DNA of 64,000 nucleotides from Niveispirillum lacus (GTDB lineage Bacteria > Pseudomonadota > Alphaproteobacteria > Azospirillales > Azospirillaceae): contig NZ_NOXU01000030.1 of NCBI RefSeq assembly GCF_002251795.1, positions 372,001 through 436,000 on the forward strand. The letters are read 5' to 3'. Positions within the stretch are counted from its first letter, which is position 1. Every line of letters starts with the position of its first letter. The notes below the pieces were generated by a model. It was not told the DNA's origin and made no database searches. It saw only the letters and a list, made by a program, of their open reading frames with translations. Below are positions 55,639 through 58,788 of this stretch, one piece after another. A program made the translations under genes and the position numbers.

Positions 55639-56568
55639 TTATTCCTTGTTCTGGTAGATACGCACCAGCTTGTCCAGCAGGGCCAGCGCGTCCTCGCGGG
55701 AACGCTGGAAGGCGTTGCGGCCGATGATGGAGCCGTTGCCGCCGCCATCGCGGATGGCGCGGGCATCCTCATACACCGCATCCTCGCCCTTGGCAGCGCC
55801 GCCGGAGAAGACAACGATGCGGCGACCATTGAAGCAGGCCTGGGTGATGTGCTTCACGCGCTCGGCCAGGGTCTCGCGCGGGATATTGTGCTTTTCATAG
55901 ATCTTGCGCGCCTCGTCCTGTTCCAGGTCGGCGGTCGGCAGCTTGACCTTGATGATGTGGGCGCCCAGCAGGGCGGCCATATGGGCGGCGTAGGCATCCA
56001 CGTCCAGCGCCAGCTCACCCTTCTTGGAGATGTCGCCGCCGCGCGGGTAGGACCAGATGACGGTGGCGATGCCCTTGGACTTCGCCTCGCGCGACAGTTC
56101 GCGGATTTCCTCATACTGGCCGAACATGGCGTCGGAGCCGGGATAGATCGTAAAGCCGATGGCCGAACAGCCCAGGCGCAGCGCGTCATCAACGCTGGCG
56201 GTGACGGCCTGATCGGCCCCTTCTTTCAGACGTGACAGGCTGTTGGCACTGTTCATCTTCAAGATCAAGGGGATGGAGCCGGCGAAGGTGGCGGCACCGG
56301 CTTCCAGCGGGCCCAGTGGTGCTGCATAGGCCGACAGGCCGGCATCAATGGCCAACTGGTAGTGATAGTGCGGGTCATAGGCGGCAGGGTTCATGGCAAA
56401 GCTGCGGGCCGGACCATGCTCGAAACCCTGGTCGACAGGCAGGATCACCAGCTTGCCGGTGCCGCCCAGGCGGCCTTCCATCAGGATGCGGGCGAGATTG
56501 GCCTTGGTGCCGGGATTGTCGCTCTCATACCAGGAAAGGATTTCCTTAACGCGGCGGGTCAGCTTCAT
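55639..56568 (-). CDS. fbaB: Class I fructose-bisphosphate aldolase, DhnA type
   Basis: 309 aa from ATG 56568 ([20 protein letters not shown]). [41 protein letters not shown] (Schiff-base Lys region) and [10 protein letters not shown] define the archaeal/DhnA-type metal-independent aldolase. It cleaves fructose 1,6-bisphosphate in glycolysis or runs in reverse for gluconeogenesis. It matches pfkA and the pyk-like gene as part of a glycolytic set, though the three lie apart. Confidence 0.95.
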
Positions 56569-56686
56569 CTTCGTTTTCCTGCCAGTTCGGCGGGCCGTTT
56601 CGGCCCTCATGTGGGTGCGGGTTTGATATCGCAGGCACCGGCGTAAAGCAACGTGACGACATTACGAGATAGTGGCCTAGATTCCG

Positions 56687-57151
56687 TTACATTGTTTTGA
56701 AATCAATATGTTGCGTCAGGTATTGCTTTAGCGTGGCACCACGGTTGCGCCGCCAGCACACCTCTGTTGTGAGCAGCGGCGCGGGGTGCAGCCGGGCACC
56801 ATGGGCCTCTGCTAACGATGTCAGACGGGTCAGCACCCCATCTGGAGTCGCAGGGCCAGGGGTAAAGGCGATGTCGGTGCAGCCGGCGCGCAAGGCAGAA
56901 AGTACCAGGCCGGGCAGGTCAGCGCAGTCCAGTAGGGCCTGGAAGGGGCCTGGCGCCTGGGCGGCCCAGACCTCCTGCAATCCCGCCCACCATCCGGCAC
57001 CGGCCAGCCCGCTGATACCGGTGGCCGAGACCAGCCTGACCGGCCGGCCCTGCGCGATGTCGAGAACCATCCTTCCGGCCTCCAGCCCGTCCACCCGCAC
57101 GGCGGGGACGGTGGACCAGTCGATGGAGAGGGCGCAATCCATCACCGTCAT
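56687..57151 (-). CDS. Hypothetical protein (154 aa)
   Basis: 154 aa from ATG 57151 (MTVMDCALSIDWSTVPAVRV). The pattern of short strands and helices (GRPVRLVSATGISGLAGAGW, QALLDCADLPGLVLSALRAG, CTDIAFTPGPATPDGV) could be an alpha/beta fold, perhaps STAS-like. No catalytic motif is visible. It stands divergent to the pyk-like gene with 140 bp between. The upstream extension is not protein-like. Confidence 0.65.
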   Translation of the reverse strand: MTVMDCALSIDWSTVPAVRVDGLEAGRMVLDIAQGRPVRLVSATGISGLAGAGWWAGLQEVWAAQAPGPFQALLDCADLPGLVLSALRAGCTDIAFTPGPATPDGVLTRLTSLAEAHGARLHPAPLLTTEVCWRRNRGATLKQYLTQHIDFKTM

Positions 57152-57291: not shown

Positions 57292-58788
57292 ATGACTCAG
57301 AAGGGGCGAATGCAGGACCCACCGCATACGGAAATGACGGCGCAGACGCTGTTGGCGGAACTCGCAGCCTTGCGCACCCTGGTGCTGGCGGACGCGGCCC
57401 ACACGCTGGAGCCGTGGGAGGTGGCCAGGCCAGTACCGGACGGCATCGTCAACCTGTCCCATTATCTGGCCCTGCGCCGACACGATCTGCGTCCTGTGCA
57501 GCGGCGCCTGATGGCGTTGGGGCTGTCGTCGCTGGGCCGGCTGGAAGGCCGGGTTTTGCCGACCCTGGACGCGGTGATCTCGGCGCTGGCAGCCCTGGCA
57601 GGACGGGACAATCCGGTTGCCGCCCCTTTGGAGGCTGCCTTCTTTGCCGGCGAGGTCCGGTTAGCAACCGCTGCGGATGCGCTGCTGGGACCAGCCGCCC
57701 CTCACCGCCGCTGCCGTATCATGGTGACGCTGCCCGGCACCGCCGCCGCCGACCCGGATATGATTCTGGATCTGGCCCGGCGTGGCATGGACATCGTCCG
57801 GATCAACTGCGCCCATGATGATGCGGCCGCCTGGCGGGCGATGGCGGCGCATGCGCGCCGTGCCGCCTCGCTGGTGGGCCGGCCGCTATCCATTCTGATG
57901 GATATTGCAGGCCCAAAGATTCGCACGGGCGAGGTACGGACAAAGGAGAAGAAGGCCCGCTTGCAGGCCGGTGATGCCCTGCGGCTGGTGGCGTCGGGCG
58001 AGCCTTGGTGCGATGCGCATGCTCCCTTTGCGGCGGCTGTGTCGCTGGCGGAGATCGTGCGCCGCCTGTCGCCGGGTGAGCGGCTGCGCTACGACGATGG
58101 TGCGCTGGAAGGGGTGGTGGAGGGGGTGGACAGCGACACGGCTATCATCCGTATCGTCCGGGCCAAGGGCGGTGGCGTGAAACTGAAGCCCGAGAAGGGG
58201 CTGAATCTGCCCGACACGGCGCTGGGCCTTTCCCCCCTGACCGACAAGGACCAGGATGATCTGGCCACCGTTGTCGAATGTGCCGATATGATTGGCTATT
58301 CCTTTGTCAGCCGGCCTGAGGATATCGACCTGCTGGAGCGCGCCCTGGACCGCTGCGCCGTGGAGCGTAAGCCGGGGCTGGTGGCCAAGATCGAACGGCC
58401 GGAGGCTGTGACCAACCTGCCGGGCCTGATGGCACGGGCAGCAGCAAAGGACTGGCCCTTCGGTGTGATGATCGCCCGCGGTGATCTGGCCGCCGAAATC
58501 GGGTTCGAGCGTGTGGCGGAAATGCAGGAGGAAATTCTCTGGCTGTGCGAGGCGGCTGGTGTACCCGTCATCTGGGCCACGCAGGTGCTGGAGGATCTGG
58601 TAAAGGACGGGGTGCCGTCGCGCGGGGAAATGACGGATGCTGCTATGGCCGCACGGGCCGAATGCGTGATGCTGAACAAGGGTCCGGCGGTGGCGGCCGC
58701 TGTCGATCTGCTGGACCGGCTGTTGGCCCGCATGGATGGGCATATCGTGAAGAAAACCCCCACCTTGCGGGCCCTGAAATCCTGGTAG
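57292..58788 (+). CDS. Pyruvate kinase-like protein with N-terminal extension and no C-domain
   Basis: 498 aa. Residues 1-135 are a helical extension unlike pyruvate kinase (LLAELAALRTLVLADAAHTL, VNLSHYLALRRHDLRPVQRR). The barrel then follows: GMDIVRINCAHDD (for IVRxNxSH), ILMDIAGPKIRTGEV, GLVAKIERPEAVTNL (catalytic Lys motif KIE), VMIARGDLAAEIGF and WATQVLEDLVKDGVPSRGEM. The sequence ends soon after the barrel, so the usual allosteric C-domain is absent. Cys-Ala-His replaces the usual Phe-Ser-His after the Asn. Activity as pyruvate kinase is uncertain. Confidence 0.82.
   Translation: MTQKGRMQDPPHTEMTAQTLLAELAALRTLVLADAAHTLEPWEVARPVPDGIVNLSHYLALRRHDLRPVQRRLMALGLSSLGRLEGRVLPTLDAVISALAALAGRDNPVAAPLEAAFFAGEVRLATAADALLGPAAPHRRCRIMVTLPGTAAADPDMILDLARRGMDIVRINCAHDDAAAWRAMAAHARRAASLVGRPLSILMDIAGPKIRTGEVRTKEKKARLQAGDALRLVASGEPWCDAHAPFAAAVSLAEIVRRLSPGERLRYDDGALEGVVEGVDSDTAIIRIVRAKGGGVKLKPEKGLNLPDTALGLSPLTDKDQDDLATVVECADMIGYSFVSRPEDIDLLERALDRCAVERKPGLVAKIERPEAVTNLPGLMARAAAKDWPFGVMIARGDLAAEIGFERVAEMQEEILWLCEAAGVPVIWATQVLEDLVKDGVPSRGEMTDAAMAARAECVMLNKGPAVAAAVDLLDRLLARMDGHIVKKTPTLRALKSW

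Follow-up and report, generated by a model that had tools for sequence, protein, structure and literature searches.

Pyruvate kinase (PK) is a textbook allosteric enzyme, with its FBP site in the C domain. In Corynebacterium glutamicum, the enzyme Pyk2 (NCgl2809) carries 120 extra residues at its N terminus, lacks the C-terminal domain, and catalyses PEP + ADP → pyruvate + ATP (PMC5112673). It rescues a mutant deleted for both pyk1 and pyk2, takes the place of Pyk1 in vivo, requires Mn2+ together with K+ or another monovalent cation, and elutes as a hexamer (PMC5112673). Pyk2 is activated by FBP and inhibited by ATP. Because the C domain, which holds the FBP site in other pyruvate kinases, is missing, its authors inferred a distinct allosteric mechanism (PMC5112673). 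The pyk2 gene shares a transcript with ldhA, and oxygen deprivation raises its mRNA 14-fold (PMC5112673). A later paper refers to it as a second functional pyk gene that is strongly transcribed when oxygen is withheld (PMC10478468).

The 498-aa protein described here resembles Pyk2 in its N-terminal segment of ~120 aa, in its catalytic A domain followed by no C-terminal regulatory domain, and in being a second pyruvate kinase beside a canonical one. The two differ in size. Pyk2 is reported at 67.6 kDa, with modelled catalytic parts at residues 128–213 and 346–606, whereas the 498-aa protein has one B domain and is without the insert of ~110 residues that long-form members of the family carry after barrel strand 3 and ahead of the B domain. 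From its published size we infer that Pyk2 is a long form. The architecture that surprised the initial annotation of our locus is already in print for Pyk2. The family is known but thinly studied: judged by titles and abstract openings, the literature held nothing devoted to a further member, no paper came up for ‘PRK14725’ together with ‘pyruvate kinase’, and the enzyme assays found include no short-form member. Methylosinus pyk2, Arabidopsis At3g49160 and the general PK classes were considered as well and set aside, as the published passages on them tie none to the PRK14725 family.

The gene lies in the window, by which we mean the whole stretch of 64,000 nucleotides from Niveispirillum lacus that was analysed. 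Its features are the following.

57292..58788, + strand: pyruvate kinase of the Pyk2 type (NF011314/PRK14725-like), short form, 498 aa (open frame, PF00224, NF011314, purifying selection)
57337..57702, + strand: N-terminal helical domain, residues 16–137 (35-member alignment, 22-row N-domain alignment, helix prediction)
57706..57924, + strand: first half of the PK (alpha/beta)8 barrel, residues 139–211 (PF00224, fold match to PDB pyruvate kinases)
57805..57819, + strand: N-C-A-H-D segment, residues 172–176, Ala for the canonical Ser (Ala in 35/35 of the family, Ser in 6/6 canonical-type)
57928..58227, + strand: single B domain, residues 213–312 (alignment with canonical and long forms)
58228..58689, + strand: second half of the barrel, residues 313–466, with K366, E368, A-R-G-D398, T430 and N462-K463-G (alignment)
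58690..58785, + strand: C-terminal tail, residues 467–498, ending KKTPTLRALKSW, without PK_C (translation, Pfam, alignment)

The frame at 57292–58788 has no internal stop and is exact to both ends. Against the closest ortholog dN/dS is 0.16 over 498 codons, hence the gene is under purifying selection. PF00224 is the sole Pfam domain of the product (residues 139–462, E 1.6e-51, 175.8 bits against a gathering score of 30); PK_C (PF02887) is absent in the Pfam scan, and the stretch after the barrel comprises only ~30 residues. The ~137 residues that precede the barrel match no credible Pfam family and are mostly helical by prediction. The initial annotation, made from the letters alone, had described barrel motifs mostly kept, an added helical N-terminal domain, a missing regulatory C domain and a changed NCAH segment, and all of this is borne out. 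Its label of a non-canonical gene stands for the architecture and falls for the idea of a peculiarity of this gene, since the features are common to the known NF011314/PRK14725 family.

PF00224 has two places in the genome at E ≤ 0.001, the gene at 57292–58788 and one on another contig. The latter (G000:C22, L001) is a 514-aa frame with barrel and PK_C, and contains the only PK_C of the whole genome. This canonical Pyk and the 498-aa protein have the PK barrel, the B domain and the core catalytic residues in common; unlike the 498-aa protein, the canonical one has PK_C, is without the N-domain and reads NFSH instead of NCAH at residues 172–175. The initial annotation named normal pyruvate kinase activity with ordinary regulation and no second pyk gene as what would speak against it; the genome does contain a separate canonical pyk. 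The profile of canonical enzymes with barrel plus PK_C, TIGR01064, gives the 498-aa protein 209.3 bits, below its cut-off of 306.4, which argues against a canonical TIGR01064-type pyruvate kinase.

Among NCBIfam models NF011314 (PRK14725, ‘pyruvate kinase’) scores highest, at 535 bits against 222.6 for the runner-up. It also ranks first for the five other members scanned, three of them short and two long. The curated equivalog cut-off of 642 is missed by all four short forms (535–589) and passed by both long ones (788 and 864). The model has 614 positions, and ~219–325, the insert, are missing from the 498-aa protein, which is the likely reason for the score below the cut-off. As the cut-off is missed and the insert is part of the model, we class the protein as a short-form relative and not as an NF011314 equivalog; by its sequence, the product is assigned to the Pyk2/PRK14725 family as a short form. 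The long-form members aligned here are L024, L025, L026, L027 and L030–L036. In a one-against-one comparison with hhalign their insert matches the short-form B domain over 71 columns (probability 90, E 1.6e-6, identity 13%); its match to the B domain of the long form itself is weaker (probability 25, E 8e-4). The insert can reasonably be read as a degenerate second B domain that would have arisen by duplication, though this is not proven.

The distribution of the family is patchy. With a match above 300 bits counted as membership, members occur in 11 of the 59 genomes covered by the relatives search, our own among them, and no NF011314 match in these 59 exceeds 642. Within the genus, 6 of 11 genomes carry a member. 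An even sample of the phylum gives 14 of 398 genomes, again including our own, seven above the family cut-off and seven below. Among the control genomes NF011314 is matched at E ≤ 1e-70 only in C. glutamicum and Deinobacterium chartae, one of the two above the cut-off. Plasmids contribute 12 records at ≥80% cover (alphaproteobacteria, Nostoc, Bacteroidota and gammaproteobacteria); the loci were examined in 11 of these, and all 11 annotated records label the family gene ‘pyruvate kinase’. The one locus returned by a single-protein scan of genome contigs encodes a canonical-type PK and belongs to a Zipacnadia MAG. Two family members found later and kept outside the alignment lie on IMG/VR contigs classed as viral (L084 1–1527 and L085 2818–4701). 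L085 also encodes a phage tail collar protein and a D12 class DNA methyltransferase; these contigs are possibly prophage edges.

We aligned 35 members (24 short, including the 498-aa protein, and 11 long) with six canonical-type enzymes. All 35 have the N-domain, Ala in the NCAH segment, the short C-terminal tail and the core catalytic residues. In a tree on 226 barrel columns the family forms one clade against the six canonical-type rows, with support 100/100. The 498-aa protein groups with its genus relatives L013, L011 and L012 and with L038 from another family. Support for separating short from long forms is weak (29/75 for the long forms as one group).

The catalytic residues are kept throughout the family. 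R170, N172, H175, D204, G207, K209 and R211, together with D269-G270, K366, E368, A395-R-G-D398, T430, R444 and D449, are invariant in 35/35 members and the same in 6/6 canonical-type enzymes, and K302 is kept in 34/35. We take these aligned positions to be the PEP, metal and proton-relay residues, with roles transferred from muscle PK. The family departs from the canonical type at a small number of sites: Ser to Ala at 174 (35/35, canonical-type Ser 6/6), Phe to Cys at 173 (34/35, canonical-type Phe 5/6), Gly to Ala at 400 (35/35), Ser to Asn at 462 (35/35) and Ser to Thr at 448 (32/35). As Ala 174 is found in every aligned member, NCAH reads as a family signature and not as damage in one gene. 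Position 209 is Lys in all 35 members and all six canonical-type rows, and Lys rather than Glu at this place presumably marks K+-independent enzymes; since Pyk2 was reported to have a need for K+ or another monovalent cation, we draw no K+ prediction from Lys209.

The predicted fold is in line with this. An AlphaFold2 model from a four-row alignment (pLDDT 78.3, pTM 0.76) has residues 10–132 mostly helical, followed by the barrel with the B domain; the structure prediction that the initial annotation had proposed as a check thus returns a helical N-domain and then a PK barrel with B domain. All 50 Foldseek matches listed are pyruvate kinases, the best from P. aeruginosa at E 6.7e-28. One of them, 3khd, bears only a locus name as its title and was recognised as a pyruvate kinase in a separate search. 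Top among the VIA-align matches is muscle PK 2g50_B (Z 31.8, rmsd 3.3 Å over 337 residues, model range 137–498). Hence, the 498-aa protein is predicted to have the fold of a PK barrel plus B domain.

The family has an N-domain of its own. N54, Y58, R62, Q70, L73, G77, L78, L81 and E85 are invariant in 35/35 members, and most of the S-S-L-G-R that follows G77-L78 is conserved too. The domain evolves faster than the core in three of three comparisons (dN/dS 0.26 against 0.10 with the closest ortholog, 0.48 and 0.45 against 0.25 and 0.24 in the other two). Its profile and the kinase profile pick out an identical set of 14 genomes among the 398, and in each of them the strong N-domain match falls in the kinase frame. 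A weaker additional match, L083 (G377:C28:47520-47711, E 6e-5), falls in a 74-aa frame away from a kinase and may be due to chance. In the 398-genome sample the N-domain is thus seen only fused to this enzyme, one weak match aside, with at most 11 first-look candidates scored per genome among the rows listed, so that solitary copies could have escaped.

Searches for relatives of the N-domain returned little. Among 22 N-domain slices scanned with Pfam, six families turned up, none of them credible and none in more than one member. The PDB profile search with the N-domain found four designed TIM barrels over 17–21 residues, with no stretch passing alone, and two more matches at E 0.84 and 1.4. 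For the AlphaFold model of the N-domain alone (three rows, pLDDT 73.8) Foldseek gave nothing below E 1.9, and the best VIA-align score, Z 6.5, is within the range that helical bundles reach by common arrangement. As the model is of middling confidence, these null searches do not amount to a new fold. CheA P1 domains were among the best N-domain fold matches, at only Z 6.5 and rmsd 3.9 Å over 99 residues; an Hpt module was tried and rejected, since the 24 short members have no near-invariant His in the N-domain, which makes a phosphotransfer module unlikely.

The neighbours of the gene in the window are a hypothetical gene, one for a class I FBP aldolase, and thiE. The stretch 55639–57151 holds the aldolase (PRK09250 type) and an uncharacterised upstream gene, which has no Pfam or NCBIfam match at E 0.1. 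The aldolase and the hypothetical gene form one matching block in five genus genomes without the pyruvate kinase gene (G001, G005, G006, G007 and G010), therefore the pairing of aldolase and kinase genes is probably incidental. The GDSL gene, the right-hand neighbour, lies elsewhere in the three of those five where it was matched. The closest relative, G003, is the only examined locus that keeps both the hypothetical and the GDSL genes around the kinase gene, so genome context says little on the role.

Some relatives offer more suggestive surroundings. On two Nostoc plasmids the short form adjoins genes for L-lactate dehydrogenase (ldh) and phosphoglycerate mutase. Two sphingomonad plasmids have the family gene a few kb from cytochrome oxidase genes, one of them annotated as cbb3-type. 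In G004, of the same genus (L052 5029–9319), it lies between genes for a FixP-like cytochrome and a FixG-like ferredoxin, and thus probably inside a cbb3 oxidase region. The ldh, cbb3-type oxidase and FixP/FixG-like neighbours give these relatives a low-oxygen or fermentation setting. lepA adjoins the family gene in G008, G019 and G012; apart from these cases, the 20 neighbour proteins scanned, from 12 of 15 mapped loci, are diverse.

We scanned for FNR/FixK boxes from 250 bases before to 30 bases after the predicted start (only approximate for G003), with TTGAY-N4-RTCAA assumed as the motif. At least 9 of the 10 box letters occur before 5 of 24 short-form genes, whereas 6547 random windows drawn from these loci predict 0.56. 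The five count as four independent cases, since two of them come from sphingomonad plasmids that are nearly identical. Perfect boxes occur in 2 of 24 against 0.05 expected: the palindromes TTGAT-N4-GTCAA at L053 and L054, which lie 16 and 44 bases ahead of the predicted start. An initial scan of wider regions covered 30 genes, six of them long forms; six genes had at least 9 letters, and no long form reached 9. Upstream of the gene at 57292–58788 the best site has 7 of 10 letters, and the window scan places no box near it.

Taken together, the gene very probably encodes a functional and probably conditional second pyruvate kinase, a short form of the Pyk2 (PRK14725) family in which the N-domain would fill the roles of the C domain. 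By analogy with Pyk2, the 498-aa protein is most likely ordinary in function and would catalyse the same reaction, PEP + ADP → pyruvate + ATP. The N-terminal helical domain would supply the assembly and the effector response that the C domain gives in classical enzymes, and the protein may serve at low oxygen or in overflow, alongside the canonical Pyk. The patchy occurrence, six of 11 genomes in the genus, could suggest a decaying or non-functional paralogue; with dN/dS of 0.16 overall and 0.10 in the core, no internal stop and intact catalytic residues, this is hardly conceivable. The initial annotation had raised an unregulated enzyme, a new substrate or a new partner. The former two become less likely because the homologue Pyk2 is a regulated, ordinary PEP/ADP pyruvate kinase, FBP-activated and ATP-inhibited although it is without the C domain (PMC5112673). 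A new partner finds a point in its favour in the self-assembly of Pyk2, which is described as eluting as a hexamer, and in nothing else that we found.

An enzyme that is constitutively active, having lost effector response along with its C domain, would fit the absence of PK_C and the location of the FBP site of other pyruvate kinases in that domain (PMC5112673). However, the reported FBP and ATP responses of Pyk2 oppose it, and the N-domain is present in 35/35 members and under purifying selection, so that we regard loss of regulation as unlikely. Neofunctionalisation of the barrel, towards a different enolpyruvyl substrate or phosphoryl acceptor, might be read from the family-wide changes near the active site at 174, 400 and 462 (35/35) and 448 (32/35). 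Nevertheless, R170, N172, D204, R211, K366, E368, D398 and T430 are all kept, Pyk2 is reported to use PEP and ADP and to replace Pyk1 in vivo, and none of the genes that recur in the examined neighbourhoods points to another substrate, the recurrent ones being ldh (two Nostoc), cytochrome oxidase (two plasmids, one genome) and lepA (three genomes); we consider this very improbable.

Within the preferred reading, that of a regulated short-form isozyme, we tentatively suggest that the N-domain is a domain for regulation and assembly of a kind not described before, which would take the place of the C domain, build a non-tetrameric, hexameric enzyme, and carry or transmit the FBP response, the short form being its minimal version. 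This is a possibility that we rate below even chances.

The family is without the C domain, and yet the one studied homologue is, by its published description, FBP-responsive, which makes an effector site without a C domain the question that these proteins pose. The short form, of ~500 residues and one B domain, is a minimal representative for locating that site. The plain ‘pyruvate kinase’ annotation masks a second class of isozyme that is built differently and, if the suggested role of the N-domain is true, this class would represent a second, independent solution to the allosteric control of the same barrel.
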